Below, piece by piece: positions 6,952 to 40,560 of a stretch of DNA of 64,000 nt. The stretch covers positions 1-64,000 of the IMG/VR virus record IMGVR_UViG_3300046703_000100; one strand, written 5' to 3'. Source of the DNA: a virus. A program made the translations under genes and the position numbers. Every line of letters begins with the position of its first letter. Within the stretch, counting starts at the first letter, position 1. The notes under the pieces were generated by a model. It saw nothing but the letters and a program-made list of their open reading frames with translations, ran no database searches and was not told the origin of the DNA.

Positions 6952-7293
6952 ATGAATTGTCCACTTGAAATTACCGAAAAATTTTCTGATTGGTCGAACA
7001 CTTGCCAAGAATGTAGACGTTATCAAGAATGTATGAATCAATCTTATGAAAACGTATCAGAAGATAAAGAAGTTTCTGGTGATAATTTTCCGACATATCA
7101 TATTATCGATGTACGTAAAATGATAAAAAAAGATAGAACAGAAATGATAGAGAAATTATTAATTGAAAATCTTGGGAAGATAACACAGGACGATGTAGAT
7201 GATATAGAAATTGATATAGGAATATATAATCAAAAATGTAGGAAAGAAAAAATAAAAAGACAATATAAAAAGAAAGTTAAACAAGATGAATAA
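6952..7293 (+). CDS. Cys-containing hypothetical protein, 113 aa
   Basis: N-terminal Cys cluster (MNCPL, then CQECRRYQEC) followed by an acidic middle and a Lys-rich tail. The spacing could hold one metal. It has an AAGGAGAT ribosome site and overlaps the deaminase gene by eight bases. No specific function. Confidence 0.55.
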   Translation: MNCPLEITEKFSDWSNTCQECRRYQECMNQSYENVSEDKEVSGDNFPTYHIIDVRKMIKKDRTEMIEKLLIENLGKITQDDVDDIEIDIGIYNQKCRKEKIKRQYKKKVKQDE

Positions 7294-7690
7294 AAAACAA
7301 TTATCGAAAATGAAAACAATTTTATTAGAATTAGCCGAAAATAATAAAGAAGGATTTCCTTTTTCAGCTTGTATCGAATATAAGAAACATTTTTATTTTG
7401 CTGTTAATCATGTTACATCGAAAAATGACCCAACAGCACATGCAGAAATAGAAGCTATCCGTTTGGCATGTAAAGAAGCAAAAGTACCAGAACTTCAAAA
7501 TGGTATAATATATTCTTCTGGCGACCCATGTCCGATGTGTTTAACCGCTTGTGCTTGGGCGGAAATTAAATTAATTTATTATGTCAACGATTATACGGTA
7601 GCTACCTCTAATAATTATTATTACGACAGACCTTCGAAAGAAGTTAATAAATTTTTAAATTTAAAACGAAATATAAGGGAAATAATATGA
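7286..7690 (+). CDS. CDA-fold deaminase, guanine/nucleoside deaminase type
   Basis: 134 residues. HAEIEAI (H52, E54) and PCPMC (C82, C85) form the zinc site and proton shuttle of the cytidine deaminase superfamily. DPTAHAE and SSGDPCPMCLTACAWAEI are closer to guanine deaminase and TadA-like proteins than to dCMP deaminase. Such enzymes hydrolytically deaminate a base, nucleoside or tRNA base. With the deoxyribosyltransferase-like and pyrophosphohydrolase genes downstream, a role in purine pools is plausible. The exact substrate is not determined. Confidence 0.85.
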   Translation: MNKKQLSKMKTILLELAENNKEGFPFSACIEYKKHFYFAVNHVTSKNDPTAHAEIEAIRLACKEAKVPELQNGIIYSSGDPCPMCLTACAWAEIKLIYYVNDYTVATSNNYYYDRPSKEVNKFLNLKRNIREII

Positions 7691-7854
7691 AATACATATA
7701 TACTTTAGAAATTAATAGAAGATTAGGTAGCTCTAATTGGTATTTGGACAGAATATATACTACAAAACAAGGTGCTATTAAAAAAGGAAAAGCAATTATA
7801 AAAAAATTTCCGACAAGCGGATTTGCAATTAAAAAATGGAGACTATATGAATGA
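7687..7854 (+). CDS. hypothetical basic protein, 55 aa
   Basis: ATG at 7687 overlaps the deaminase stop. The N-terminus reads MKYIYTLEINRRLGSSNWYL, and the rest is Lys-rich with an alternating strand-helix pattern. Its stop overlaps the start of the M16 peptidase. Not recognised. Confidence 0.5.
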   Translation: MKYIYTLEINRRLGSSNWYLDRIYTTKQGAIKKGKAIIKKFPTSGFAIKKWRLYE

Positions 7855-8998
7855 AATATTTATAAATAAAAAAGGATTCGCAACTTTTGTTGGAGTATTA
7901 ATTCCTTTTGGCTCATATTATGAAGATTCAAAAGTTAAAGGTATTGCTCATTTCATTGAACATATGACTTTTAAAGCAACAAAATATCGTACAAAAAAAC
8001 AGATAAACGAATCTATTGAAGGGGTTGGAGGCGATATTAATGCCTACACTTGCGAAGAACAGACTTTTTATCATGCTATTGTTGCTAATAAATATAAAGA
8101 TATGGCAATCGATGTTATCAAAGATATAGCTCTTAACCCCTCTTTTCCTGCTAAAGAAATAGATAAAGAACGTGAAGTGATTATACAAGAACTTAAAATG
8201 TATGAAGATAATCCTTCTGCTATTGTAGGAGAGTTATATAATAAGATTTATTATCCAAAAGAGAGTGGTTTTCATCTTCCGGTAATAGGAACTAAAGAAA
8301 CTTTACATAAAATAAATAGAAAAGTATTAAACGAATATCATAAAAACAATTATCAAAATCCCACATTAATTGTCATAGGGGATGTTAAAAGCAAAACAAA
8401 TAAAGAAGCGATAATAACAGAAACTACATTAAATACTATATATAAACAAAAAAAAGATGAATATTTAGAAAAAAGAAAAATAGAACAAGCTCATATGATT
8501 ATAGGGCATGATGTTTATTTATCGCAGTATTCGAAAATAGATACAATATTACTATTAAATTTAGTTAAATTACTTTTAAATGGTATGAGTGGCAGGTTAT
8601 TTGGTAAAATAAGAGAAGAAAATAACTTAGTTTATGGAATACATTTTAATTACACAGTTTGGTCAGGTGGTATGATTACATGGTACGTCAATTTAGGACT
8701 AGATAAATCAAAAATCTATAAAGCTCGTAAATTAATTGAACAAGAAATGACAAAAAATGTCTTAAAAAAAGAACTAAAAGAAACAATTATAAAAACGATA
8801 GGAACTAACGCTTTAGAAAGCGAAGATATAAATACTATATCCGAGTTAATTGTAGATTGTACACGTAAACAGATAGATTATAGCCCTTTATATCATGATT
8901 TCGAGAAGAATCTCCGTCGAGTAAGTGGAAATTTGAACGAATTTATAAAAGCGTTGAATTTTAAAGAAAATTTTATGTGTGGTATCGTTCCAAAATAA
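7847..8998 (+). CDS. M16-family zinc metallopeptidase
   Basis: 383 residues from the ATG at 7847, with GGAG six bases upstream. HFIEH (35-39) is the inverted HxxEH zinc motif of M16 peptidases (pitrilysin, insulinase, processing-peptidase beta). The downstream EREVIIQEL supplies the third zinc ligand Glu, and GMSGRLFGKIREENNLVYGI matches the conserved second-half GR/Y region. M16 enzymes cleave unstructured peptides. A single-unit M16 gene is unusual in phages. It is the last gene before the 9011 promoter. Targets could be host signal peptides or toxins; this is open. Confidence 0.85.
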   Translation: MNEIFINKKGFATFVGVLIPFGSYYEDSKVKGIAHFIEHMTFKATKYRTKKQINESIEGVGGDINAYTCEEQTFYHAIVANKYKDMAIDVIKDIALNPSFPAKEIDKEREVIIQELKMYEDNPSAIVGELYNKIYYPKESGFHLPVIGTKETLHKINRKVLNEYHKNNYQNPTLIVIGDVKSKTNKEAIITETTLNTIYKQKKDEYLEKRKIEQAHMIIGHDVYLSQYSKIDTILLLNLVKLLLNGMSGRLFGKIREENNLVYGIHFNYTVWSGGMITWYVNLGLDKSKIYKARKLIEQEMTKNVLKKELKETIIKTIGTNALESEDINTISELIVDCTRKQIDYSPLYHDFEKNLRRVSGNLNEFIKALNFKENFMCGIVPK

Positions 8999-9010
8999 AC
9001 TGTAAATTAC

Positions 9011-9039
9011 TTGACATCTTCAGGAAAATAGTGTATAAT
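9011..9039 (+). promoter_or_regulatory. consensus sigma-70-like promoter
   Basis: A perfect TTGACA at 9011-9016, a 17-base spacer and a perfect TATAAT at 9034-9039. It is the strongest-looking promoter of the window and places the start of the next gene downstream at 9082. Confidence 0.88.
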
Positions 9040-9081
9040 TTAGTTATGAGAGAAAGAGACTTTAAAAAAAGGAGTAATGAC

Positions 9082-9738
9082 ATGAAATCAGGACAAGAAA
9101 CTTTTGATTGGTCGAAATTTTGGCAAGGCTGTTTAGGTTTGTTCAATCCGGTTTTGTGGGCAAAGGATTTAGTAAGCCTTTTTAATGTTCGAAAATTAAT
9201 TATATACATTATAATAATTGCAGGAGTTTTCTTCTATGCTTATTCAATTGGAAATCAGAATGTTCCGGTACAGATTTCGCTTGGATATGGCAAAGAAGCA
9301 ATAATAAATCTCGGTTCGGGAGAATTCTTATGGATACAAAAATCTGGTGAAGTTGCAGTAATCGACAATGCTAATCCAGAAAAAGCAAAAATACTTCGAA
9401 TAATAAAAGTAAAAGATTTAGGTGCATTAAAAGGAAAATTAAGTGCTATTGGGGTACAGTTTGTTCCTATTGCGGTTGTAGGATATGGACTTGGTATAGG
9501 AACAGACGGTGGTATCGAAGGCGGAATAGAAGGTGGTGCAGGTATATCGTTTTTCAGATATTGGCAGGGGTCGGTAGAAGCATTTTTAACACAAAAAGGT
9601 GTATATGTAGGTACTTCATATAGACTTGATAGAATAAAATTATCAAATACTTCCGTTGGTATTGCTGTAGGAAAAGGTTATCAAGATTTTACTAATAGTA
9701 ATTATAGGATAATGATATATGGAAGTATTCGTTTCTAA
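9082..9738 (+). CDS. membrane-anchored Gly-rich hypothetical protein, 218 aa
   Basis: The start at 9082 is chosen because it follows both the promoter and AAAAAGGAG; the longer ORF from 8977 would begin upstream of the promoter. Residues about 38-55 are a single transmembrane helix. The rest is beta-rich with a Gly-rich stretch (GGIEGGIEGGAG) and ends in alternating strands finishing in Phe, which recalls small beta-barrel proteins. First gene under a consensus promoter, so probably well expressed. No family recognised. Confidence 0.65.
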   Translation: MKSGQETFDWSKFWQGCLGLFNPVLWAKDLVSLFNVRKLIIYIIIIAGVFFYAYSIGNQNVPVQISLGYGKEAIINLGSGEFLWIQKSGEVAVIDNANPEKAKILRIIKVKDLGALKGKLSAIGVQFVPIAVVGYGLGIGTDGGIEGGIEGGAGISFFRYWQGSVEAFLTQKGVYVGTSYRLDRIKLSNTSVGIAVGKGYQDFTNSNYRIMIYGSIRF

Positions 9739-11278: not shown

Positions 11279-11617
11279 GTGAATCTAACCACGTGTGATT
11301 TGTGCAAAGAAATTTTGCCAGAAGGTGATAAAAAATTTGTATTTGCGTTATATCCGATGAACGAAGAAGATGAAGACACAAAAAAGATGAGATTTGCAGA
11401 AATATTAGACGCTCTATATAAAGGCAAAAGATATGAAGATAATTCTATTAAAGTAACTGAAATATGTAATCAATGTGCAGGAGTATTTGCTCACTTTATG
11501 AATCTTCGGAAAAAAGAATTGATAAAGTCAAGAAGAGAAGTAAAAAGAATGTTATCGAGAAAAGTAAGAACAGAAAAAAAGAAAGAAACTAAAAAAGATA
11601 ATAGAGGGAATAAATAA
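11279..11617 (+). CDS. zinc-finger protein with basic tail, 112 aa
   Basis: GTG start at 11279, supported by AAGAAGGAG seven bases upstream. CDLC near the N-terminus and CNQC at about residue 63 form one zinc site across a helical insert. The last 35 residues are extremely Lys/Arg-rich and probably bind nucleic acid. Function unknown; it lies between two nucleotide-pool genes. Confidence 0.6.
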   Translation: MNLTTCDLCKEILPEGDKKFVFALYPMNEEDEDTKKMRFAEILDALYKGKRYEDNSIKVTEICNQCAGVFAHFMNLRKKELIKSRREVKRMLSRKVRTEKKKETKKDNRGNK

Positions 11618-12000
11618 TGGCAGAATTTAATGAAGTAAAGGACAGTGGAAAAAGAGAAGATTTTAATACCGGAAGTAAGAGAGATACTCGTCAAGGTAAA
11701 GGAAGATTTGATTTAATCAGTCCTATCGCAGAAGAAAGATTAGCCAAGCATTATGAAAATGGAGCAGTAAAATATGGAGATAGGAATTGGGAAAAAGGAC
11801 AACCATTAACTCGTTATTTAGATTCTGCTAAAAGACATATAAATAAATTAATACAAGGTTATAAAGACGAAGACCATGCAACTGCTGTAGTTTGGAATTT
11901 AATGGCTTATATTCATACAGAAGAAATGATAGAAAGAGGTTTGCTTCCGAAAGAGTTAAATGATATGCCAAATTACAAAAAAGACAAAAAAGAGGAATAA
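11617..12000 (+). CDS. dATP/dGTP pyrophosphohydrolase-like protein (DUF5664 family)
   Basis: 127 residues. RFDLISPIAEERLAKHYENG, then KYGDRNWEKG, RYLDSAKRHI and DEDHATAVVWNLMAYIHTEE form the all-alpha MazG-like core of the family known as dATP/dGTP diphosphohydrolase N-terminal domain (DUF5664). Conserved acidic residues in the last helix pair bind metal. In phages with 2-aminoadenine DNA such an enzyme (MazZ) removes dATP or feeds dGMP to PurZ. No PurZ-like gene is in this window, so a general pool-cleaning role is equally possible. Confidence 0.75.
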   Translation: MAEFNEVKDSGKREDFNTGSKRDTRQGKGRFDLISPIAEERLAKHYENGAVKYGDRNWEKGQPLTRYLDSAKRHINKLIQGYKDEDHATAVVWNLMAYIHTEEMIERGLLPKELNDMPNYKKDKKEE

Positions 12001-12192: not shown

Positions 12193-12460
12193 AAGAATAA
12201 ATTATTTAAAATCTCTACAAAAAACTTTAGAACTATTTACAGATGGTTCAAGAGTTTTAGATGAATCAATTGATAGATGTTCTGAAATAGGATTTCGTGC
12301 TAAATTAAATGAATATCTTTTACAATATGCCCAATTAAATTTTGATTTTAGTTCTTACATTATTTTTAAATTGAGCGAAGCATATTCAAAAGATAAAGAA
12401 GAACAAGAATTTAATGATTTAATTAAAGGATTAGAAGAGGATATAGATGGAAACAAATAA
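12185..12460 (+). CDS. helical hypothetical protein, 91 aa
   Basis: All-helical prediction by eye, no membrane span, one Cys. It overlaps the following exonuclease gene by 14 bases. No family recognised. Confidence 0.55.
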   Translation: MNKRINYLKSLQKTLELFTDGSRVLDESIDRCSEIGFRAKLNEYLLQYAQLNFDFSSYIIFKLSEAYSKDKEEQEFNDLIKGLEEDIDGNK

Positions 12461-14336
12461 AGGTAAAATTATTATGGTGGATTTTGGGTGTTTAATGTTT
12501 AGTGCAATTTTTGCACATAAATTTACGCCCCAAATACCTGTTACATATACGACCACAAATATGATTTTAGCTAATCTTTTAAAAGTAGGTGTTCAATCAG
12601 AAGATATTATTATGATAGCTTGCGATGAAGGACATTCATGGAGAAAAGATTATGACCCTTGTTTAGACGAACAGACAGAAGTATTGACAAAATTAGGATG
12701 GAAATATTTAAAAGATATAGTGGAAAAGAAAGAAAAAGTAAAAATAGCTACTTTAAATCCAAAAACGAATAAAGTAGAATATCAATATCCTAATAATTAT
12801 TATAAACGGTTTTATAGAGGAGAAATGTTTAAATTCGGAGGACGTGGTTGTCAAATAGACCTTTTAATGACTCCAGAACATTCTCATTATACAAAGAATA
12901 CTACAGATGAAAAATTTACATTACAATTAGCAAAAGATATAAGAAGATATAAAATTAATCATAATAAACAATTTAATTATAATAAAAAAGGATTAAAATA
13001 TATTATTATTCCCAAACTAACAACCAAGTCTATTACAACAAGAGGAAGAGCAGAATATACATATATTGTTAAACATCCAAAACGAAAAATAGAAATTAAT
13101 TTATGGCTAAAGTTTTTGGGTTGGTATTTAACAGAAGGTTCTTGTGGAGGAAGACGATATTGTGGATATATAAAACCTTATAGCGTAGTTATTCCTCAAT
13201 CTTTTACTCATAATCCTGCAAACTGCAAAGAAATTGAAGACATTTTAAAAGAATTAAACGAAACTTTTTGTATAACTAAACGAAAAAATATTAATTCTTA
13301 TAGTATTTCAAATACTCAATTAGCGAACTATTTAAAAAACACATTTGGAAATTCTTTTCATAAATTTATTCCTCGTATATTATTAAACAAATTAAATAAA
13401 AAACAGTGTCAATTATTGTTAAAAACAATGATTAAAGGTGATGGAACGGTTCGAATAGGGAAAAAAACCGTTAGTTATGCATATACTACTGTATCAAAAC
13501 AGTTAGCGAATGATGTTCAGGAATTAGCATTAAAAGCAGGATATACTGCTACCATTACAATGCCAAATCAAGACAGAACTTGGTACGGAGTTAGTATTTT
13601 AGACAAATATATAACAGAAAGTTACAAAAATATAATCAAAAACTGGCAGGGGGATGTGTACGATATAGAAATTCCTAATCATATATTTTATATTAGACGC
13701 AACGGCAAATGTTGTTGGACAGGAAATTGTTATAAAGCAGACAGGAAAGAAAAAAGAGAATCACATACAGATATTAATTGGAAATTAACTTTTGAAATGA
13801 TGAACGATTTATTGGTAAAATTAGATATATCTACCAATTGGCATATAATTCAAATTGAAAGTATGGAAGCGGATGATATACAAGCAGTTGCCACAAGATA
13901 TTATAAAGATAATGAAGTAGTTTTAATCACATTTGACGCAGATATGGAGCAATTACTTGACAATAAAAATGTAAAAATATTTTCTCCAAAATCAAAGAAA
14001 TATAAATTTAATACTAATCCTCTTGCAATGTTAGCGAAGAAATTAAATAAAGAAGCAGTAGATGGGTTAACGAATCCGATTTTGAATGAAGAAGATTTTG
14101 ACAGAAGAAATTTAATCGTAAATTTAAGAGAATTGCCAGAATTTGTAGAAACACCTATTATAAATAAATTTAAAAATTTAGAAGTAAAAACACCTGATAT
14201 AGATGAGTTTCCTTTCTTTAGTTTAAAAGAAAAATATTTAAATCTTTGTAATAATAAGACAAAAATAGTTACAATAGAAAAATGTGAAAAAGAAATAGAA
14301 CGAAAGAAGAAAAGGAAGAAAGTAAAAAAATCATGA
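12447..14336 (+). CDS. 5'-3' exonuclease / FLAP-type nuclease interrupted by an intein
   Basis: 629 residues before splicing. The extein (1-71 joined to 428-629, 273 aa) is a PIN/FLAP nuclease: MVDFG at the N-terminus, ACDEGHSWRKDYDP before the insertion, CYKADRK directly after it, then ESMEADDIQAVA and ITFDADMEQLL, which carry the metal-binding acids. This resembles T4 RNase H and the 5' nuclease domain of DNA polymerase I, which remove RNA primers and flaps. The 356-residue insertion separates the Tyr-Asp-Pro and Tyr-Lys-Ala-Asp-Arg parts of the conserved active-site loop, so splicing is needed for activity. The C-terminus is a very basic Lys/Arg tail. Confidence 0.87.
   Translation: METNKGKIIMVDFGCLMFSAIFAHKFTPQIPVTYTTTNMILANLLKVGVQSEDIIMIACDEGHSWRKDYDPCLDEQTEVLTKLGWKYLKDIVEKKEKVKIATLNPKTNKVEYQYPNNYYKRFYRGEMFKFGGRGCQIDLLMTPEHSHYTKNTTDEKFTLQLAKDIRRYKINHNKQFNYNKKGLKYIIIPKLTTKSITTRGRAEYTYIVKHPKRKIEINLWLKFLGWYLTEGSCGGRRYCGYIKPYSVVIPQSFTHNPANCKEIEDILKELNETFCITKRKNINSYSISNTQLANYLKNTFGNSFHKFIPRILLNKLNKKQCQLLLKTMIKGDGTVRIGKKTVSYAYTTVSKQLANDVQELALKAGYTATITMPNQDRTWYGVSILDKYITESYKNIIKNWQGDVYDIEIPNHIFYIRRNGKCCWTGNCYKADRKEKRESHTDINWKLTFEMMNDLLVKLDISTNWHIIQIESMEADDIQAVATRYYKDNEVVLITFDADMEQLLDNKNVKIFSPKSKKYKFNTNPLAMLAKKLNKEAVDGLTNPILNEEDFDRRNLIVNLRELPEFVETPIINKFKNLEVKTPDIDEFPFFSLKEKYLNLCNNKTKIVTIEKCEKEIERKKKRKKVKKS
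12660..13727 (+). mobile_element. intein with LAGLIDADG homing domain (in the exonuclease)
   Basis: Encodes residues 72-427 of the exonuclease ORF. It begins with Cys (CLDEQTEVLTKLGWKYL, block A). Block B has LMTPEHSHYT, the TxxH site. Two LAGLIDADG-type motifs follow (FLGWYLTEGS and LLKTMIKGDG). Block F is VYDIEIPNHIFYI and the end is CCWTGN followed by Cys+1. The penultimate residue is Gly, not the usual His. The homing domain looks intact. Confidence 0.92.
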
Positions 14337-15566: not shown

Positions 15567-16307
15567 ATGATTAAAAAAGTTTTACATATTATTAGTATAA
15601 TTGTGAAGTCTTTTATTAAGGGAAGTGTAGTTGCTTTGTTGATTTTAAATATGGTATTAATTATTAATGTAGCACAGTTAATGAATGACCTAGAAGCTAA
15701 AACAGATACAATGGTATCAGCAATACAAGAAAATAAAGTACCTACATTGCCAAATTTTGAAAATTTAGTCAGAGCAAATGTAGTTATTTACAATATATCA
15801 AAAGGTTGTATGGGAGCAGGTACAATAATTAATGTAAATGGAAAAATTTATATTCTTTCCGCAGGACATTTAGATGACCCTGACGATACATTTTTTGTTA
15901 AAGAAGGAGAAGAATATCGAGGTATCACATTAGTTAAAGTTAATCATAAAGTAGATTTAGCATTATTTGAATATGATTGTACTTATTGTGATTTAACAAT
16001 AGCTCCAATTGCTGTTGGAGAACCAAAAGTAGGAGACAAAGTTTGGGCAATAGGTAATCCTGCTTGTTTAGAAGACGCTATTACATCTGGTACTTTAGTT
16101 AGAAAATTAGGATTTAATTATCTAATGGATGCTAAAATTTATCATGGTAATAGTGGCGGAGGATTATTTAATACAAAAGGCGAATTAATAGGAGTAAATG
16201 TAGCAATGACAGGAATACCAGGTTATATGTTAGGTATGACGGTTAATTTAAGTACAGTAAAAGCTTTTGTTTTAGGTTTAATTCCAAACGAACTTGATAA
16301 AGGATAA
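15567..16307 (+). CDS. membrane-anchored trypsin-like (S1/HtrA-type) serine protease
   Basis: 246 residues. A hydrophobic anchor at about 17-38 is followed by a protease domain with LSAGHLDD (H101), VDLALFEYD (D130) and YHGNSGGGLFN (S196), the complete His-Asp-Ser triad in the order of trypsin/DegP. No PDZ domain follows, so it is shorter than HtrA. The topology suggests that the catalytic domain faces the periplasm or outer side. Possible roles are degrading envelope proteins or blocking superinfection; substrate unknown. Confidence 0.85.
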   Translation: MIKKVLHIISIIVKSFIKGSVVALLILNMVLIINVAQLMNDLEAKTDTMVSAIQENKVPTLPNFENLVRANVVIYNISKGCMGAGTIINVNGKIYILSAGHLDDPDDTFFVKEGEEYRGITLVKVNHKVDLALFEYDCTYCDLTIAPIAVGEPKVGDKVWAIGNPACLEDAITSGTLVRKLGFNYLMDAKIYHGNSGGGLFNTKGELIGVNVAMTGIPGYMLGMTVNLSTVKAFVLGLIPNELDKG

Positions 16308-16308
16308 A

Positions 16309-16569
16309 ATGTTTGAAAAATTCTATAATTGGCTACTTTATTTAACCAACAATGAAAAAAAATCCGTAGAACTTTGGCGAGCAGATGAAATTCATTTTGA
16401 TATAGGATTTTTGATTTCAGGTTTTGTCTTATTAATGCTTGGAGTCATAGGTGTAATATTGTATGTTATTACAAAACAAGATGTATATTTAGGCATTATG
16501 TTTGGTTGCGAATTTATTATATGTTTCATCTGGCTCTGGGATAATATTCGTCATAATCGGGAGGATTAA
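16309..16569 (+). CDS. two-span membrane protein, 86 aa
   Basis: Start taken at 16309, directly after AAAGGATAAA; the ORF extends to 16294 but that start is inside the protease gene. Two hydrophobic helices (about 28-49 and 55-76) follow a polar N-terminal part, with a basic end. Coupled to both neighbours. Function unknown. Confidence 0.6.
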   Translation: MFEKFYNWLLYLTNNEKKSVELWRADEIHFDIGFLISGFVLLMLGVIGVILYVITKQDVYLGIMFGCEFIICFIWLWDNIRHNRED

Positions 16570-17144
16570 TGATAGATTTTGAAGGGATGCCTAAAATTGC
16601 AAGACTATCGAGAGAAATAATAATCTCGGAAAAACTGGATGGGTCTAATGCATTAGTTTATATTTCAGATGATTTGTCTACTATTACTTTACAATCTGGC
16701 AGAGAAGTTCCTTTTTTAGTTGGAAGTAGAACTCGCTGGATATTGCCAGAGAACGATAATCATGGTTTTGCTCGATGGGCTTATGAGCATACTGACGAAC
16801 TTTTAAAATTAGGTAAAGGTTGGCATCGAGGCGAATGGATGGGGCAAGGAATAAATAGAAATTATGGACTTAAAGAAAAAAGATTTTATTTATTTAATAC
16901 TTCAAAATGGACAGATGATACAATAAGACCAAAATGTTGTCATGTTGTTCCTGTTCTTTATCAAGGTATTTTTAATGAAGACGAAATAAATAATTGTATT
17001 GATAGATTATTTTTAGATGGAAGTATTGCAGTACCTACATTTATGAAACCAGAAGGAATAGTTATCTATCATACTGCTGGAAAAATATACTTTAAGAAAA
17101 CAATAGAAAATGATGAAAAACCTAAAGGTCAAGTAGATGAATAA
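16569..17144 (+). CDS. RNA/DNA ligase family protein (nucleotidyltransferase)
   Basis: 191 residues. EKLDGSN (K22) is motif I with the nucleotide-accepting lysine. SRTRW, GEWMGQGI (motif III, E89), FYLFN (motif IIIa), EGIVIY (motif IV, E162) and KIYFKKT (motif V) complete the catalytic core, as in RNA_ligase/Rnl2-like proteins. It lacks a large C-terminal domain. Phage members repair nicked tRNA or RNA after host defence, or seal DNA nicks. Which one applies cannot be told from sequence. Confidence 0.85.
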   Translation: MIDFEGMPKIARLSREIIISEKLDGSNALVYISDDLSTITLQSGREVPFLVGSRTRWILPENDNHGFARWAYEHTDELLKLGKGWHRGEWMGQGINRNYGLKEKRFYLFNTSKWTDDTIRPKCCHVVPVLYQGIFNEDEINNCIDRLFLDGSIAVPTFMKPEGIVIYHTAGKIYFKKTIENDEKPKGQVDE

Positions 17145-17475
17145 GATAATTAAGAGTATAATACTTATAAGTATCTTAATTTCTATATTTATAGTAGGTT
17201 ACTTTATGCCTTTCTGGAGACAAAAACCTATTCCAAAACCAATACCAATAGAAAATTTAAAACCACTTCCATATGGGTCAACATCTTGTATTAAGGATGG
17301 AATTCTTTTTACAAGTGTTAAAGCAATTCCTATTGCATGTATAACTAAAATAACAAGAATAGATTCAATGAGTGTAATGATAGAGTATAAAATTTCGAAT
17401 ATTCATAGAGGTTCTTTAATGATGAAATATTCGGAGTATAAAAGATTATTCGAGGTAAATGATGCCAAGACTTAA
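17137..17475 (+). CDS. single-span membrane protein, 112 aa
   Basis: Hydrophobic helix at about 4-26 followed by a Pro/Lys-rich linker (PIPKPIPIENLKP) and a beta-rich domain. Probably anchored with the C-terminal domain outside the cytoplasm. It overlaps both neighbours. Not recognised. Confidence 0.6.
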   Translation: MNKIIKSIILISILISIFIVGYFMPFWRQKPIPKPIPIENLKPLPYGSTSCIKDGILFTSVKAIPIACITKITRIDSMSVMIEYKISNIHRGSLMMKYSEYKRLFEVNDAKT

Positions 17476-18127
17476 AACAAAAAGAACATTAGAGAATACA
17501 AGATTTTCAATCGAAATTGAATGTGAATTTCCATCAGCCAAAGATAGTCAAAAATTAATTTCAAAACATAGAATTATTAGAGGTTGGGAATTAGATTATG
17601 ATGGGTCATTGGATAATGGAGCAGAGTATCGTCCGAAAAATCGGAATAAACTTTATTGGAACGAAGATTGTATAGACCAAATAAAGGAAATTATAGGACT
17701 TATTAAGGCACATAGAGGACATATTAAAGGCAGTACATGTGGGTTTCATATACATATAGATATGAGCAAGTTTACCAATAAAGAAATTTGTAATATTATA
17801 AAAGCATATATTAAACAACAAAATAAAATTTGTAAACAATTTGGCATGTTAAAATGTCGTTTAGACTATGCCCAAAAAATACCTACAAACACCATAAAAT
17901 ATTTAACAGAAAGAAATATTCAAAAAATTAAAGAAAATAATGATAATTGCCGAGATATATGTATTTATATGTCAGAAAGACATTTTGCTCTAAATCTTTT
18001 GGCTTTACAGCGACATGGAACACTCGAATGGAGATTATTTAACGGCTCAATACAAATTAATCGTATTAAAGGATATATTAAATTTGTTCTTAATTTCTGT
18101 TTAAATAACGCAAAAGGCGATAAATGA
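17459..18127 (+). CDS. amidoligase-like enzyme (ATP-grasp/glutamine-synthetase fold)
   Basis: 222 residues. RFSIEIECEF at the N-terminus, the acidic/aromatic pair WELDYDGSLDNGAEYRP, then GFHIHIDMS (about 95-103) and GTLEWRLFNGS match the putative amidoligase family, whose Glu and HxH residues bind metal and ATP. Family members are predicted to join amino groups to carboxylates in peptide-tag or cell-wall chemistry. Either of two consecutive ATGs could be used. It is followed by small transporter-like membrane genes, so a metabolite or peptide modification cassette is conceivable. Confidence 0.75.
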   Translation: MMPRLKTKRTLENTRFSIEIECEFPSAKDSQKLISKHRIIRGWELDYDGSLDNGAEYRPKNRNKLYWNEDCIDQIKEIIGLIKAHRGHIKGSTCGFHIHIDMSKFTNKEICNIIKAYIKQQNKICKQFGMLKCRLDYAQKIPTNTIKYLTERNIQKIKENNDNCRDICIYMSERHFALNLLALQRHGTLEWRLFNGSIQINRIKGYIKFVLNFCLNNAKGDK

Positions 18128-18498
18128 TAGACCCATTATGGACAACTAAACAAATATTTGGTGCATTACTTATCTTTACTTCTATCTTTGATGCAGTAAA
18201 ATATAGTGTACAAGCCTTAAAAATACATAGACTACATTCAGCGAAAGGAATGTCAAGAAGATTTACGAATTGGGCTATTTCAAATGATATTGTAAAACTA
18301 ATTTACGGAAGTATTATTATAGATATATATATTGTTTTATCAAGTATCTTAGCATTAATTTGTATGACTCATCTTTGGATAGAAACCTATCTTAATTATC
18401 CATATCGTTATCGTGGATTGGAACATTTTAAAAGACCTAATCCAATTTTATACTTAATAAACAGTGTTATGCCCAATTCTTTGAGAAAAAGGTTATAA
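18124..18498 (+). CDS. SemiSWEET/PQ-loop-like membrane protein, 124 aa
   Basis: Three hydrophobic spans (about 8-30, 47-66 and 67-87). Between the first two lies a Q...K..R motif followed by SAKGMSRRFTNW, which matches the PQ-loop of SemiSWEET sugar transporters and related lipid-A-type repeats. A polar C-terminal tail of about 30 residues is extra. SemiSWEETs dimerise to carry small sugars. Substrate is unknown; it is next to a PnuC-like and an MFS gene. Confidence 0.55.
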   Translation: MIDPLWTTKQIFGALLIFTSIFDAVKYSVQALKIHRLHSAKGMSRRFTNWAISNDIVKLIYGSIIIDIYIVLSSILALICMTHLWIETYLNYPYRYRGLEHFKRPNPILYLINSVMPNSLRKRL

Positions 18499-18499
18499 A

Positions 18500-18739
18500 A
18501 TGCCTAAATATATAATGTATTTATTAATAACATTGTGTTTAATAGGACAAATTTTAGTTACTAAGCATAAAAGAAGTGGATATATGCTCTGGATAATTAG
18601 CGATTTTGCATGGGCTGGTTTTAACTTTTCCCAATGGCAAGTTATTGGAGCAATAGAACAAGGAATTTTATGGTCTATTTATTTAATAATTTCTGTTTGG
18701 GGATTTGTAATTTTTAAGAAAGATAAAGATGAAAAATAG
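18500..18739 (+). CDS. PnuC-like small membrane protein, 79 aa
   Basis: Three hydrophobic helices in 79 residues. The KRSGYMLWIISDFAW and AIEQGILWSIYLIISVWGF segments look like the second half of PnuC vitamin transporters (nicotinamide riboside type), a fold related to SWEET. Being a half-length unit it would have to oligomerise or pair with the protein encoded at 18124. The identification rests on pattern only. Confidence 0.45.
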   Translation: MPKYIMYLLITLCLIGQILVTKHKRSGYMLWIISDFAWAGFNFSQWQVIGAIEQGILWSIYLIISVWGFVIFKKDKDEK

Positions 18740-19910
18740 AAATATATTCTATTTATATTTATTAATAGGAAGCGTGTTCGGACTTCAGGCATTAGAAGGA
18801 CTTCCAGGTTCAGCTATTTCATTTTATTTTAAAGAGACTTTACATTTAAATGCAAGTACAATGATGTATATTTCATCAATTATTTCATTAGTATGGTTCG
18901 TAAAATTTTTGTGGGGTTATCTTATTGACAATGTAGTATCAGTTAAATTTTGGATGATTTTATCTATATTAATAAGTTTAGGAACATCTCTTTATTTCGG
19001 GTTGAATCAAATTATTGTTCTTCCTTTATTAATAGGACTTATGTTAATTAATGGATGGGCAGAAGCCTTACGGTCAACAGGTGCAGGTGGATTAACTTGT
19101 AGCGAAGGTAAAAGATATGAAAATACAGGAAAATTACAAAGTATTAGAGAAGGTAGTCAGATTATTATCGGTATATTAACAGGAATTGCCGGAGGATGGA
19201 TTGCACAATACACTTCCTATCATTTTGGGTTCTTGTGTTTGATTCCATTTTATATAATTTTATTAATAATTGTTTGTCTTTATAAACCTGCTAAAAAAGA
19301 GACATTACGTATTAAAATGTCATTTATAGATACAATAAAATCTTATAAAGAAGTTTTTACGAACAAACAATTTTTATGGATATGTTTAATTGTTTTTCTT
19401 TATAATTTTAATCCGAGTTTCGGAACGCCATTGTGGTTCAAAATGCGAGATTCGTTTCATTTTTCGAAGATATTTTTTGGAGTTTTAGATTCTTTAACTG
19501 CAATAACAGCTTTAATAGGAGTAGTATTTTATTATAAATTCAGTAAAAAAATTAATATACAAAGATGGATTAAAAATTCGATTTTCATTGGAGCAATAAC
19601 AAGTATGTGTTATTTATATTTTACCAAATATACTGCAATTATATATCCTCTGATATTTAGTATTGTAGGAGCGTTTATTTCGCTTATATTATTAGATTTT
19701 ATGGCACAATCCTCTATTAAAGGCAAAGAAGCAGTTTCTTTTGCAGTATTGTGTAGTATAATAAATTTAAGCGGTACTTGTTCATTATTATCAGGAGCTT
19801 GGTTATTACCTAAGATTGGATTACAACCTTTAATAATTTTAGCATCAGTTACAAGTTTTTTATGCCTTCCTTTTATTGGACATCTAAAATTGGAGACAAA
19901 AAATGGATAA
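18729..19910 (+). CDS. major facilitator superfamily transporter (AmpG/BT1-like)
   Basis: 393 residues with about twelve hydrophobic helices. The N-terminal part (LEGLPGSAISFYFKE, then WFVKFLWGYLIDNV) follows the AmpG and folate-biopterin (BT1) MFS pattern with a degenerate GxLxD motif A. A polar loop near residue 190-205 separates two six-helix halves. Such carriers import muropeptides, folates or other small solutes. A complete MFS carrier is rare in phages. It overlaps the PnuC-like gene by eleven bases, pointing to a transport cassette. Confidence 0.85.
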   Translation: MKNRNIFYLYLLIGSVFGLQALEGLPGSAISFYFKETLHLNASTMMYISSIISLVWFVKFLWGYLIDNVVSVKFWMILSILISLGTSLYFGLNQIIVLPLLIGLMLINGWAEALRSTGAGGLTCSEGKRYENTGKLQSIREGSQIIIGILTGIAGGWIAQYTSYHFGFLCLIPFYIILLIIVCLYKPAKKETLRIKMSFIDTIKSYKEVFTNKQFLWICLIVFLYNFNPSFGTPLWFKMRDSFHFSKIFFGVLDSLTAITALIGVVFYYKFSKKINIQRWIKNSIFIGAITSMCYLYFTKYTAIIYPLIFSIVGAFISLILLDFMAQSSIKGKEAVSFAVLCSIINLSGTCSLLSGAWLLPKIGLQPLIILASVTSFLCLPFIGHLKLETKNG

Positions 19911-21342: not shown

Positions 21343-23280
21343 ATGGAAAAAGAAATAATAGTAGGTTATCTTTTAGAATATTTAAAAAAGAGAGAAGTAA
21401 AAATTAAAGTCGCTGGTGCATGTACGATGTTGGAATGTCCTTATTGTCATAAAGTTCCCATGTCCGCCACCATACCACCTCGCTGTACCTTTATCAATTG
21501 TTTTTCTTGCAATGCCAAAAAGAAGAATATAATCGATATAGTAAGAGATACTGAAAAGGTAGAAGGAACAGATGACGATGTAATTCATTATATTAAGGAA
21601 TTATTAAATTTAGATATGGTTACAAAAAAGGATACAGAAAAAATAAATGAAGTCTTAAAATTCTATGTGGAAAACGGATTTGATTTAGTTCCGGTAGCCA
21701 AAGATAAGAAAATACCTGTAGAACAAGACTGGACACATAAAATTCATAAAGATATTGATGAATGGCAAACATGGTTAGGGGATGGAATTAATTTAGGAAT
21801 AAAGACTGGCAAATCTTCAAATCTTACAATTCTTGATGTAGACGTAAAACCAGTACCTAAAGAAATTTTAGCATTAGTAGGAGATACTTTTACATTAGAG
21901 ACTTCTAAAGGATTTCAATATTATTATAAATATATCGCAGAATTACCAAAAACTCGTATCAACGATTTAAAAATAGATTTAGAAAACGAAGGTGGTCAAT
22001 GTGTTGCTTTTCCTTCTATAGTAGATGGAGTGAAAAGAAAAATAAATTCTTTTAAACCTATTATAGAAATGCCTAAAGATTTACTAGATTATTTAAAAAC
22101 AAAAGTAACAGTACCTTTAAAATCCTTTAGTGAAAAATTAAAAGAAGATATTCAGACTGAGAACTTTAACCTTAATCTTCTCAATGAGGGTGAGAGAAAT
22201 GTTTCTTTATTAAAATTAGGCGGTCTTCTTCGTAAAGAATTGAATGTTAACCAAACAGAACGAGTTTTAAGTATACTTAATAGACATATTTGTACAAATC
22301 CTATTTCTTCAAAAGATTTAAATGCTATGGTTAAAAGTTTGTCTCGCTATACAGATTTCGATGAAAAAGAATTAGCTCATAGAGTAATGATTTATCTCAA
22401 AGATGTAGAAGAAGCAGGAAGAATGGAAATTTGTTCTGCTATTATGGGAACGAATCGTGGAGAAGAAAAAATAAGAATAGATAAAGTATTAAATTATTTA
22501 GTAAAAGAAGGATATATACAGAAGAAAGGTTCTCGTTATATTCTTTTACAGAAAATGACTTGGGCAAATTCTTTATTAGATACTGACAATAATATAGGAT
22601 TTAAAATACCTTATTTTTATGATATTGCAAATATTGAGTATGGAGATTTAATTTTAATTGGAGGTACTCCAAAATTAGGTAAAACACATATTTCTATGAA
22701 TATAATAAAACAATTAGTAGAACAAGGAATAAAACCTTATTATATTTCATTAGAATCGGGAAGTCGTTTTAAAAAAATTGCTCTTCAATTAGGATTAAAA
22801 GACGACGATTTTAATTATAATAAAAAATGGATAGACCCTGTTGGAATCCAATTAGAATCTAAAGCAATCATGATTATAGATTGGTTATGTCCTGATAATT
22901 TTGCAGAAGTAGATAAAATATTTAGACATTTTACAGAACAATTAGCTAAAACAGGTGGAATATTGATTGTATTTATGCAATTAAAAGGAGATGGAAATTG
23001 GTTTTCTTCGAACCTTGTTATGCAATTTCCAGCATTATGTGTAAAATATATTTACGACGATGAAAAAGATGGTACTTATGGCAAATTTGTTATAAACGCT
23101 GTTAGAGACCCAAAATCACATATTAAAACATGGGAAATAGCATGTAAATATGACTGGCAGACTAAATTGTTTTTACGAATAGATGAATTAGAAAAGAAAG
23201 AAATAAAAGAACAAGGGAGTACTAAAGAATTACCAAAAGACGGAGAAATACAAATTGATACGCAGGAGATAAGCAATTGA
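21343..23280 (+). CDS. primase-polymerase fused to a RecA-type helicase/ATPase
   Basis: 645 residues. The N-terminus has a zinc site: CPYC at 32-35 and CFSC at 53-56. An archaeo-eukaryotic primase-like PrimPol domain follows (VPVAKDKKIPV, a WLGDGINLGIKTGKSSNLTIL strand, then the metal-binding DVD at 164-166). The C-terminal half carries a Walker A GGTPKLGKT near 440-448 in a RecA/DnaB-like ATPase core. Such fusions make primers and unwind DNA at the phage fork. No separate DnaB or DnaG gene is in the window, so this is probably the replicative primase-helicase. Confidence 0.85.
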   Translation: MEKEIIVGYLLEYLKKREVKIKVAGACTMLECPYCHKVPMSATIPPRCTFINCFSCNAKKKNIIDIVRDTEKVEGTDDDVIHYIKELLNLDMVTKKDTEKINEVLKFYVENGFDLVPVAKDKKIPVEQDWTHKIHKDIDEWQTWLGDGINLGIKTGKSSNLTILDVDVKPVPKEILALVGDTFTLETSKGFQYYYKYIAELPKTRINDLKIDLENEGGQCVAFPSIVDGVKRKINSFKPIIEMPKDLLDYLKTKVTVPLKSFSEKLKEDIQTENFNLNLLNEGERNVSLLKLGGLLRKELNVNQTERVLSILNRHICTNPISSKDLNAMVKSLSRYTDFDEKELAHRVMIYLKDVEEAGRMEICSAIMGTNRGEEKIRIDKVLNYLVKEGYIQKKGSRYILLQKMTWANSLLDTDNNIGFKIPYFYDIANIEYGDLILIGGTPKLGKTHISMNIIKQLVEQGIKPYYISLESGSRFKKIALQLGLKDDDFNYNKKWIDPVGIQLESKAIMIIDWLCPDNFAEVDKIFRHFTEQLAKTGGILIVFMQLKGDGNWFSSNLVMQFPALCVKYIYDDEKDGTYGKFVINAVRDPKSHIKTWEIACKYDWQTKLFLRIDELEKKEIKEQGSTKELPKDGEIQIDTQEISN

Positions 23281-24971: not shown

Positions 24972-26033
24972 ATGGGTCGCCATTTAAAAACATGCTCATG
25001 CGAAAGTTGTAAAGAACGAGAGTCTCAAGAAATTATGAAAGAACAAATAGAACCAAAGATTGAAACACCTAAAGAGAATACTGAGTTTAATCGTACTATG
25101 AAAGAACTCGAACGAAAGTATTCTATGAAACCTGCATCTGAAATAGTAATTGAACCAAAGATTAGAACAGGTGTGTACGCATTTGATTATGTGTTGTCAG
25201 GGGGTATAGCACAATGTGAAGGTGGATGCAAAATTGAACTTTATGGTAGAGAATCAAGCGGAAAAACAACTTTGGCTATGAAAGTTGTAGCCAAATTTCA
25301 GGAATTAGGAAAATCTTGTATCTGGATAAATGCCGAGAATAACCTTGATTCGCTTTGGGCAGAAATGAACGGCGTAGATATAAACAAACTTTTAGTTACC
25401 AAACCAGAAACTCTTGAAGGTGCAGGAGACATGATTATAGATTTAGTCGGAAAGGTTGATTTAATAGTAATAGATAGTATTTCTATGCTTATTCCAGCAG
25501 AAGAATTAGAAGGAGGACTTGAGGATAAATCGATGGCATCTCAAGCAAAAGTGCTTTCTCCTTTTTGTCGAAAACTTTTACAATATTACAAAGATGCTAA
25601 AACTACGATTATCTTTATTAATCAGATGCGAGAAAAAGTCGGTGTTATGTATGGCAATCCCGAAACCACAAGCGGAGGCAGGGCAATTCGTCATCTTTAC
25701 GATATTCGAGTAGAAGTTCGTAAAGGTAAACCAATTGAAGAAGGAACAGGAGAAAGTAAAGAAGTAATAGGACATGAAATTCAACTAAAATGTACAAAAA
25801 ACAAAAAAGGTAGAGCGTATTTACAAAGTATCGTAGATTTTTTCAGTATTGCCAAGTTCGACAATCGTAAATCTTTAATTTTTGCTGGTCTAAAATATTG
25901 CGTGATTAAACGAGAAGGAAACACATACACTTTCAAGAATATATCAGCAGTAGGACAAGATAAGTTTATAGATAAATTCGATGATAAATTACTTAAAGAA
26001 CTTGAAGACGAAATTTGGAAATTGGAAAAATAA
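24972..26033 (+). CDS. recA: RecA-family recombinase
   Basis: 353 residues with AAAGGAGAT before the start. Walker A is GRESSGKT (92-99); YAFDYVLSGGIAQ precedes it, and LIVIDSISMLIPAEELEG plus TTIIFINQMREKVG are the RecA Walker B and loop-L2 regions. It coats single-stranded DNA and drives strand exchange. The N-terminus is unusual: an extra segment of about 60 residues starting with a CSCESC cluster. With SbcC/D, RuvC and RuvB-like genes it completes a phage-encoded recombination set. Confidence 0.93.
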   Translation: MGRHLKTCSCESCKERESQEIMKEQIEPKIETPKENTEFNRTMKELERKYSMKPASEIVIEPKIRTGVYAFDYVLSGGIAQCEGGCKIELYGRESSGKTTLAMKVVAKFQELGKSCIWINAENNLDSLWAEMNGVDINKLLVTKPETLEGAGDMIIDLVGKVDLIVIDSISMLIPAEELEGGLEDKSMASQAKVLSPFCRKLLQYYKDAKTTIIFINQMREKVGVMYGNPETTSGGRAIRHLYDIRVEVRKGKPIEEGTGESKEVIGHEIQLKCTKNKKGRAYLQSIVDFFSIAKFDNRKSLIFAGLKYCVIKREGNTYTFKNISAVGQDKFIDKFDDKLLKELEDEIWKLEK

Positions 26034-26047
26034 CTAAAAGGAGATTT

Positions 26048-26293
26048 ATGGAAAATGTACCTGTTGTACCTCTTAAATTAAACGGTCTTCGAGTAGAAGT
26101 TCGTCCAGCAGACTCAAAAGATGCCCAATTGTTTCAATTAGAAAAGGCATTAAAAATATTTAAGAAAAAACTTGAAAAAGATGGCATCTTATTTGAGGTA
26201 CGTGAAAGAAGATATTATACCAAACCTTCCATTATAATAAGAACGGCATATAAGAAATTACATCCAAAAAAGAAAAGAGTGCAAGCTAAATAA
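26048..26293 (+). CDS. rpsU: bS21-like ribosomal protein (phage-encoded S21)
   Basis: 81 residues from the ATG at 26048, with AAAAGGAG upstream; the ORF could open at 26015 but that overlaps recA. Residues 29-61 (FQLEKALKIFKKKLEKDG, then ILFEVRERRYYTKPS) follow the bacterial bS21 pattern of a first basic helix, ILxE and RRxYxKPS, and end in a basic Lys tail. An N-terminal part of about 25 residues is extra. bS21 sits by the 16S 3' end on the small subunit, where it can affect mRNA choice. Phage bS21 genes are known from other large phages. Confidence 0.8.
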   Translation: MENVPVVPLKLNGLRVEVRPADSKDAQLFQLEKALKIFKKKLEKDGILFEVRERRYYTKPSIIIRTAYKKLHPKKKRVQAK

Positions 26294-28516: not shown

Positions 28517-28670
28517 AAAAGAAGAATGTTTTTTTTATATGAGAGGTAAATGTGCCAGAGATGAAGAGAATCCTATTGCTATAATACCTTGTACAAAGAA
28601 ATGTAAGTTTTTTCTTTCATGGGAACATATGTTGAATGGTTTATCAGAAAAGGATTATGATGCGAATTAA
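28500..28670 (+). CDS. Cys-containing protein, 56 aa
   Basis: Start at 28500, with AAGGA upstream; the longer ORF (28437) starts inside the coiled-coil gene. CFFYMRGKC and CTKKCKFF resemble a CCCH or paired-Cys metal site. It overlaps the polymerase start by about ten bases. Confidence 0.5.
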   Translation: MPRQNKKEECFFYMRGKCARDEENPIAIIPCTKKCKFFLSWEHMLNGLSEKDYDAN

Positions 28671-31600
28671 TAACTTATTTTCAGAACATAAAGACCTTTA
28701 CGTATTTTATCGTGATGATTTATGTAATTTAAAGATTACAAAATTCACTGGTTTTTTCCCATATTTCTATGAACCAGACCCTTCTGGAAATTTTGAATCT
28801 TTTAAAGGTGAAAAACTTCGTAAAATAATTATATCAAATCCTTCAGAAATTCGAAAACAAGCAAGTACAAAAGCTTTTGAATCAGATATATTATTTGTAA
28901 AAAGATTTATGATAGATAAAGTAGATGTTATCGAACCTGCTCCTATTAAATACTGTTTCATAGATATTGAAACTCTTTCTCCCGAAATGCCAAATGTACA
29001 AGAAGCCAAATATCCAATTTCTTGTATTTCGATTTATAATTCATTATCTAAAGAAATTAAAACTTTCTATCTACCAGATTATGAATCAGAATACATGATG
29101 TTGGTTGCCTTTACAACATATATGAAAAAAGAAAAGTTTGATATATGGTTTTCATGGAATGTAAAGTTCGACTATAATTATTTATACAATCGCACTCTGT
29201 CGATATTCGATTTAGAAGGAATAAAAAACGCAGACTTGGCAGAATGTATAAGTCCAATAGATAAAAGTAGATATGGAGACGGAGAAGTAAAATATCCGGC
29301 AGGTACTTCGGTTGTAGATTATCTTGAATGGTTTAAAATAATTACATTAAAAAGAGAGAAAATGTATACTCTCGATTATATTGCACAGAAATTTTTAAAA
29401 GTTCCTCCAAAGGAAAAAGTAGATTTTAGTAAATTATCACCAAAATTAAAACAACATAATATTGATGATATAAAACTACTCGTAGGATTGGAAGAACTAA
29501 TGCATTTAGTATCCTATTACGACGAAATTAGACGAATTACACAAGTTGAGTGGGAAGATTTTATATATAATAGTAGAAGTATTGATATGCTTATTTTAAA
29601 AGAAGCTAAACGAAGAAATATAGTATTGCCAAATAGACCTTCTGGAGAAGGAGATGAAGAGATTTTCGAGGGAGCCTTTAGAGAGATATACGAGACTGGT
29701 CGTCTGGAGAACGTTGGTAAGGCAGATTTAGGTTGTTATTCAGAAGATACTGATATTTTAACTATAGAAGGATTTAAAAAATATAACGAATTAAAAATAG
29801 GAGAATCGGTAGCATCTTTTAATACAAAAATCAATAAAATCGAGTTTCAACCTATCCTTCATTTAAATATACAAAATGTAAAAAACCTACCTATGATAAA
29901 TCTGAAAAACTCTTATTCAACAGACCAACTTTTAACTTTAAATCATAAAGTTTTATTTAAAACTTCTTCAAAAAATCATAAAACGATAGAAAATACGACA
30001 AATGATTGGGAAATTTGTTACGCAAAAGATTTTCGAATTTCTCATTCTTTATTACCATTAACCGCTGAAATGAAAGATAAAGAGAATTATCCAATTTCTG
30101 ATGATATAATAAAAATACATGCTTGGATTATAACAGAGGGTTATGCATCAGGTAAAAATAAAGATATTTATCATATTAGTCAGAGCGAATCAATTAATCC
30201 TTTATTTTGTAAAGAAATTGATGAATCTTTCAAAAACCTAAATTGGAATGTAACTCGTTATGCAAGAATACGAAAAAATAATAGAATAGAAGTAGAATGG
30301 AATTTGAAATGGCTTTGGTCTACTTATATCGAGTTAGAAGAAAATTACAAAGCGATTCCTTTATGGATGCTCCAAAAATTATCAAAAAGACAATTAACCG
30401 TTTTATACGATACTTTAATGAAAGGGGATGGAGATAAAAAACGATATTGTTATTATGCTATTGACAAACTTGCTAAAGAAAGATTTCAATATTTATGTGC
30501 ATTACTTGGAAAAGCTTCTTATCAAAATAATAGAAAAGAAGTTTATTGTAAACCTAATAAATTTACAAGTCTTGAATCTGCAAATTTTAAAACTCAACAT
30601 AAAATTATAAATTATTCAGGTGTAGTATGGTGTCCTACAATTGCAAATGGATTTGTTTTAGTAAGAAGAAAAGGAAAGATATTTATTTCAGGAAATTCAG
30701 CCTATCCTTATGCTATTATAGAATTTTGTCTTGACCCTGCAAATGTAGTACAAGATAGCGGAGAAAATATTATACAGGTAGGAGACAATTATTTTAAACA
30801 AGATTCTAAAGCACTTATACCAACTATTATTAAAAAATTACTTGTTTTAAAAGCCACAATTAAAAAAGAATTATCAGAATGTTCAGTAGACGACCCAAAC
30901 CACAAAAATATTAAATTAAAATACGATGCTATAAAATCATTATGTAATACCGCATATGGAGTTACCGCTTTGAAGTTTTTTAGATTGTTTGATGTGCGTG
31001 TTGCATCGGCTACAACCTTCGTTGTACGTTCTTTACTACATTATATTAAAGATAAATTAGATGGTTCTGGACATCCGGTAGTTTATATAGATACAGATGG
31101 TGTATTTTATAAGAACCCTTCGACAGAAATAAATACAAAATTAAACGAATGGATTCAACAATGGGTAAAAGAAACTTTTAAAAAAGAAAGTGTGCAAATT
31201 TCGTTTGATTTTGAAGGTGTATACGAAAGTATTCTTTTATTGGCAAAATGTAGATACGTAGGAAGATTAAGAAAAAATAATGGAGAACTTGAAATAGAAA
31301 CAAAAGGTATTGAAGCAAAAAGAAAAGATTCTACCAAATATATGAGCAATTTTCAAAAGATATTAATAGATAAGATTTTAGACAACGAACCTAAAGAAAA
31401 AATATATGATTGGATAAAAGAAGAAATTAAAAATTTCCCAAAACAAAATATTATAGATATATCATTTCCTTGTAAAATGGCAAAATCAAAAATAGAATAT
31501 AAGTCAGTTCCCATCTTCTCCAGAGCTTTAGATAATACTCCGGAATTTAAGACAAGGGTAGGAGATAATTTCTACTATATTTATATGGAAGGTCTGGATG

Positions 31601-40389: not shown

Positions 40390-40560
40390 ATGTTACATAA
40401 TCTTTTAATTGCTGTTTATAGTGGAACTCTTACTGGAATATTGATTGTCTTTCTTTTAATACCGATAGCGTTCTTATTAGGGCTTAATTGCCCTTTAACA
40501 TTATCGAATTTTAGAAAGATATGGTACATTATATTTGTAGGATATAAACATGACAAATAA
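40390..40560 (+). CDS. membrane peptide, 56 aa
   Basis: One long hydrophobic stretch at about 4-32 and an amphipathic aromatic C-terminal segment. It overlaps the glycosyltransferase gene by eleven bases. Possibly anchors or assists the glycan cassette; no proof. Confidence 0.45.
   Translation: MLHNLLIAVYSGTLTGILIVFLLIPIAFLLGLNCPLTLSNFRKIWYIIFVGYKHDK

Follow-up and report, generated by a model that had tools for sequence, protein, structure and literature searches.

Four genes follow one another closely on the + strand of the window, the 64-kb stretch of DNA analysed here. They encode an amidoligase, a small membrane protein related to SemiSWEETs (ORF2), half of a PnuC-type transporter (half-PnuC) and a major facilitator superfamily (MFS) carrier of the BT1 family (Table 1). 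The initial annotation had described these genes, overlapping or abutting, at 17459–19910, and both their coordinates and their coding status were confirmed. The amidoligase and SWEET-like genes overlap by 4 bp, a 1-nt gap separates the SWEET-like gene from half-PnuC, and half-PnuC overlaps the MFS gene by 11 bp. All four ORFs are coding-like in their own frame, with codon usage matching that of the phage. The block belongs to a more extended + strand run of overlapping genes that starts at ~15.5 kb; tight packing is unremarkable in itself since most genes of the phage abut. Predicted promoter sites were no more numerous than in shuffled sequence. Profile searches with each protein returned Amidoligase_2, NMN_transporter (half) and MFS_1/BT1, with SemiSWEET homology solid only as a family profile. 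PHROGs and NCBIfam agree with the Pfam results.

Table 1. Genes of the four-gene block and its flanks
Feature	Coordinates	Strand	Evidence and relatives
Membrane-anchored trypsin-like/DegP-like protease, upstream gene	15567..16307	+	PF13365 E 1.8e-13; equivalent position in G683
RNA ligase, flanking gene	16569..17144	+	PF09414 E 2e-14; 53% identity, equivalent position in G683
Amidoligase, short GS-like (COOH-NH2 ligase), 222 aa	17459..18127	+	PF12224 E 2e-17
SemiSWEET-related small membrane protein (ORF2), 124 aa	18124..18498	+	Family profile against SemiSWEET (hhalign)
Half-PnuC, 79 aa, C-terminal three-helix half of NMN/nicotinamide riboside transporter	18500..18739	+	PF04973 E 5e-5
BT1 (folate/biopterin transporter) family MFS carrier, 393 aa, divergent	18729..19910	+	MFS_1 1e-22, BT1 E 1.9e-12
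Primase-helicase, downstream gene, lineage marker	21343..23280	+	PHROG DNA primase; 64% identity in G683; in 7 relatives

The window covers positions 1–64,000 of the 91,572-bp virus record IMGVR_UViG_3300046703_000100. The first 127 bases of the record are identical to its last 127, so that the assembled genome forms a complete circle. The window has a G+C content of 30% and no tRNA genes. A family-B DNA polymerase, primase-helicase, RecA, proteins resembling RuvB and RuvC, a tyrosine recombinase and a tape measure protein are encoded, which identifies the virus as a tailed phage. A bS21 ribosomal protein homologue (26015–26293) adjoins RecA and recurs in G683, G690, G687, G688 and G686. Two nucleotide-pool genes encode the N-terminal domain of a dATP/dGTP diphosphohydrolase and a dCMP-deaminase-like protein (11617–12000 and 7286–7690). 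The 5′–3′ exonuclease-like protein (12447–14336) and DNA polymerase B (28636–32145) carry inserts, at residues ~70–428 and ~366–687, respectively, that are absent from the nearest relative, G683, and resemble inserts of other phage proteins. Both inserts are probably inteins, with a LAGLIDADG-type domain in at least one of them. An HNH-type homing endonuclease-like family is repeated in the window (62489–63109) and further along the genome (72093–72746, 77065–77670 and 79947–80720), and is also present in relatives. A sugar gene cluster (40550–47029) encodes a glycosyltransferase, UDP-GlcNAc 2-epimerase, FnlA-like and RmlD-like enzymes, and sialyltransferase-like and nucleotide-sugar transferase-like proteins. 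Its FnlA-like protein is 59–60% identical to Patescibacteria proteins, but best matches of the gene are divided among Patescibacteria, Bacillaceae and methanogens and so do not point to one host.

Relatives of the block were recovered by alignment. Searches of 50,697 phage records with tblastn, loose limits included, yielded no relative of the MFS, SWEET-like or PnuC proteins. Single-protein scans of viral and bacterial contigs (MFS, SWEET-like and one other protein) were also empty because exact peptide patterns were too strict; the alignment-based search succeeded. Against plasmids, the MFS carrier gave one weak partial match at 20% identity. The first lead was a carrier from Patescibacteria, 27–29% identical to that of the window. 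An alignment of its family neighbours retrieved two phage carriers from IMG/VR, and alignments of these two carriers and of the ORF2 homologues on their contigs retrieved the remainder. The outcome was 11 IMG/VR contigs that share genes with the window (G681–G691) and a distant BT1-bearing contig, G692. Using the primase as final query returned only G683, again.

BT1 is encoded by nine of the 11 related contigs and by G692, the SWEET-like protein by ten of the 11 and the short amidoligase by six, while the amidoligase of G682 is of another, longer type. Where BT1 or the SWEET-like gene is missing, the contig is a fragment of <30 kb; both genes are present in all eight contigs of at least 32 kb, the window counted. 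Because either BT1 or ORF2 served as the query, co-occurrence is judged without bias on whichever gene did not retrieve the contig. G684, G688 and G689, retrieved by ORF2 alone, also carry BT1, and G683, G690, G687, G681 and G682, retrieved by BT1, also carry the SWEET-like gene. The amidoligase, a query in neither retrieval, is present in six contigs. Distances between BT1 proteins correlate with those between SWEET-like proteins (r 0.72–0.87, fewer than 10 sequences). The ORF2 proteins of G684, G685 and G686 are identical, and these contigs may represent one virus population. The lineage is one of AT-rich tailed phages of roughly 90 kb, absent from the named-phage collection, in which BT1 is near-constant, the SemiSWEET-related protein is almost always present and the short amidoligase often is.

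One relative, G683 (IMGVR_UViG_3300031834_000002), is syntenic with the window. Its order is protease, small ORF, RNA ligase, ORF, amidoligase (62% identity), SWEET-like protein (66%), M50 protease, 48-aa ORF, BT1 (47%), small ORFs and primase. This matches the window except that the M50 gene and 48-aa ORF of G683 occupy the place of half-PnuC, and that a DNA methylase gene precedes the primase in the window. Elsewhere among the relatives, some 10–30 kb separate the dispersed amidoligase, SWEET-like and BT1 genes. The gene set is therefore conserved, but the block is not shown to be a fixed operon. The proposal of a single block holds for G683, with one replacement, and overstated the linkage elsewhere. 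Complete loss of order together with decayed motifs was not what we observed: G683 keeps the order, and the amidoligase motifs are intact.

The neighbourhood of BT1 in relatives is rich in peptidase genes. The M50 gene adjoins BT1 or lies within a few genes of it in G683, G690, G687, G688, G684 and G691; ClpP is near BT1 in G690, G687, G688, G684, G691 and G681, with BT1 and ClpP together in eight contigs; and deformylase is near BT1 in G690, G687, G688 and G689. An M16 gene directly adjoins BT1 in G687, whereas in the window M16 is 10 kb away. Across L186, L188, L189 and G683–G691, the genes near BT1 encode an M50 site-2-type protease, a peptide deformylase and a ClpP-like protein, with an M17-like aminopeptidase in G684. 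The M16 (insulinase-type) peptidase of the window adjoins a two-helix membrane protein (7823–9738), the latter kept in six relatives and M16 in three. No M50, ClpP or deformylase gene was found in the window. The lineage is unusually peptidase-rich for phages.

The amidoligase-like enzyme of the initial annotation is well founded. It scores 64.4 bits against PF12224 (cut-off 22), and ten residues (E19, E21, D48, S50, C94, H97, H99, N179, E190 and R192) are invariant relative to seven other phage amidoligases and across all lineage members; every active-site residue is kept. The protein shares its GS-like core and invariant residues with known phage amidoligase modules. Those modules pair the enzyme with a gamma-glutamyl cyclotransferase, an ATP-grasp, a COOH-NH2 ligase or a glutamine amidotransferase, whereas no gamma-glutamyl cyclotransferase, ATP-grasp or amidotransferase was found among nearly all predicted proteins of this phage. 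Lineage amidoligases also differ from other phage amidoligases in being 217–231 aa long and without a C-terminal extension. In 49 other amidoligase-bearing virus records PnuC occurs in none and an MFS gene in one, indicating that the pairing of amidoligase and carrier is peculiar to the present lineage. Around 88 amidoligase loci, mostly from IMG/VR, tblastn found no MFS, SWEET-like or PnuC relative. A papain-family protease encoded elsewhere in the genome (84364–85101; L003:4364-5101) is 47% identical to one on the amidoligase-bearing virus contigs L085 and L088.

The carrier had been described as AmpG/BT1-like, and it is the BT1 part that stands. The window protein scores 47.1 bits against Pfam BT1 (PF03092; curated cut-off 22), the model for the folate-biopterin transporter (FBT) family that includes Synechocystis slr0642, and the carriers of relatives score 79.7–124.2 bits (E 7.6e-36, 1e-28, 4.5e-25 and 2.4e-22). 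The model is specific, since E. coli AmpG and LacY, used as negative controls, do not match it. An AmpG identity was not supported: AmpG hits its extra family Acatn but lacks a BT1 match, and the phage carrier shows the converse pattern. The statement that phages almost never carry an MFS carrier is broadly correct for carriers of this type, given the 50,697 phage records, but PHROGs does contain a phage MFS family, phrog_2034. The profile of that family hit most genomes tried and 14/14 controls, proved generic for MFS proteins and was discarded as uninformative. AlphaFold models from single sequences (pTM 0.34 and 0.26) were too poor for fold searching.

In a tree, the phage BT1 proteins form a single clade apart from Patescibacteria BT1 (support 100/100), which, with their being phage-encoded, distinguishes them from known members of the BT1/FBT family. 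Patescibacteria BT1 proteins nonetheless share with the phage carrier a C-terminal KEA..FA.L.S..N....L.GAWL stretch. The window carrier is 30–52% identical to those of eight related contigs with an intact gene; in G687 the gene (L189:10001-11370) is split into ORFs of 302 and 128 aa, owing to an insertion or frameshift within it. The window protein has a branch of 1.24, compared with 0.13 for its sister G690, and, of the 59 positions at which the other eight phage carriers never vary, is altered at 14, including P60F, D116S, D120G, Q140R and W141E. Only the distant G682 is more deviant (31/76). The KPLYG..SD..P..G.RR..Y loop typical of the family is missing from the window carrier, which reads KFLWGYLIDN, and both aspartates of D...DG are lost; the D...DG aspartates are present in relatives, and the loop is complete in G682. 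The ORF is full length and coding-like. From these substitutions we take the carrier to be under changed or relaxed constraint in this phage, which may have affected its activity.

BT1 is a family label rather than proof of substrate, and it is genome context and family knowledge that point to folate or pterin transport. When produced in E. coli, one cyanobacterial BT1-family protein acts as a folate transporter (PMC1971073). The closest bacterial homologue of the phage carriers sits in a Patescibacteria run, tmk-folD-purF-purD-BT1 (gene names from translations), and purD adjoins BT1 in all 12 Patescibacteria loci checked, which fits a context of folate-dependent purine synthesis.

ORF2 had been called PQ-loop/SemiSWEET-like. 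The homology holds for the family profile, whereas the PQ motif (VQ in the window protein and xQ across the family) and the substrate-binding Asn of TM3 (replaced by Ser or Ala) are absent. The ORF2 family has 11 members including the window protein, to which those in related contigs are 42–66% identical. ORF2 has no Pfam match and on its own reaches E 0.04 against SemiSWEET and E 0.16 against PDB 4rng; with SemiSWEET profiles it beats 1000/1000 of its own shuffles for two of three profiles (best E 0.008). The family profile aligns to SemiSWEET by hhalign with 82–90% probability (E 1e-5 to 2e-6), compared with <1% for three other families of the same phages used as controls. Likeness to SemiSWEETs (MtN3/PQ-loop) comprises three-helix length and a match over ~80 residues of the profile that includes Q, an S..S stretch and YG. 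Unlike the SemiSWEETs compared, the family conserves D23 and K26 in helix 1 and N54 and D55 in helix 2, and has a basic tail, FKRPN...PN..RK.L, at the C terminus. These sequence features suggest that ORF2 is a member of a new conserved SemiSWEET-related family, separate from SemiSWEETs. Having its own conserved residues and neither the PQ proline nor the TM3 Asn, the family should not be assumed to transport sugar. A split PnuC, formed of ORF2 as N-half and the third ORF as C-half, was rejected, as the ORF2 family aligns to PnuC with a probability of only 0.7%.

The half-size PnuC-like call survives in part. PF04973 aligns to the ORF at profile positions 113–175 of 175, that is, over the C-terminal half of the PnuC family (phage KVP40 PnuC included), but at 23.7 bits it is below the cut-off of 27.3. 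Whereas PnuC is a 3+1+3 helix protein, the 79-aa product is half that length, no N-half was found in the phage genome and none of the 12 other contigs has a counterpart. The slot is variable, and half-PnuC is best regarded as an orphan gene inserted there late.

Our preferred reading, held tentatively and at a little short of even confidence, is that the membrane genes are expressed early and bring a folate-like cofactor into the host; we infer the substrate, direction, timing and cooperation of the genes. The BT1 carrier would insert in the host membrane during infection and increase uptake of folate or a related pteridine, thereby supplying one-carbon-dependent nucleotide synthesis during phage replication, and the SWEET-like protein would transport another small solute. 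The amidoligase would ligate an amine to a carboxylate; the amine could plausibly be an amino acid, for instance glutamate, and the imported compound might be trapped by this ligation, or some other target modified. Folylpolyglutamate synthase adds an amino acid to folate, retaining or modifying the cofactor. Cooperation of the amidoligase in folate-type import is nevertheless doubtful, and we regard as improbable a dedicated import-and-trap module in which BT1 imports folate or pterin, the amidoligase adds an amino acid, the SemiSWEET-derived protein moves a charged co-substrate and the protease/transporter-half slot is swappable. Against folate import, neither thymidylate synthase, DHFR nor other folate enzymes were found among nearly all predicted phage proteins, and D116, D120, P60, Q140 and W141 of the carrier are replaced. 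Loss of conserved Asp, Pro and Trp residues from the carrier, together with half-PnuC in the M50 slot, suggests that the module may be re-purposed or partly decayed in this phage.

The position of BT1 beside M50, ClpP, deformylase or M16 genes in most relatives hints at another partnership, in which the M50, M16, ClpP, M17-like and deformylase proteins would make or clear peptides, the amidoligase would join amino acids and the carriers would move the products, either for peptide recycling or as a secreted modified peptide. The intact amidoligase active site is compatible with such a role. We consider it unlikely, given that no precursor peptide was found, that in the window M16 is 10 kb off and neither M50, ClpP nor deformylase was found, and that BT1-family proteins are known for folates and not peptides. 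Somewhat less unlikely is that the genes are unrelated morons drifting in the early-gene region with separate roles (for example, superinfection exclusion or membrane conditioning), the carrier decaying here. Gene order dispersed in all relatives except one, an orphan half-PnuC, the altered window carrier and the split gene of G687 all fit this explanation; the joint presence of BT1 and the SWEET-like gene in every longer contig, their correlated protein distances and the full-length, coding-like carrier ORF do not. The initial annotation also raised salvage of imported cofactors. In its NAD-precursor form, a half-PnuC homodimer would import nicotinamide riboside and the other carriers would bring further precursors. 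Large phages such as KVP40 do have full-length PnuC and the PF04973 match covers the C-terminal half of the family, but this proposal comes down to a single orphan ORF of half the fold, below cut-off, and searches of the phage turned up no NAD enzyme; it is very improbable.

No described phage system with this gene set was found, as had been supposed. Secondary carriers are rarely reported as lasting phage genes, and here one persists across a phage lineage, accompanied by a new SemiSWEET-related family. The gene set also provides a concrete handle for identifying the hosts of this uncultured phage group. Folate-type import, if correct, would allow these phages to relieve a vitamin limitation on nucleotide synthesis in their hosts.
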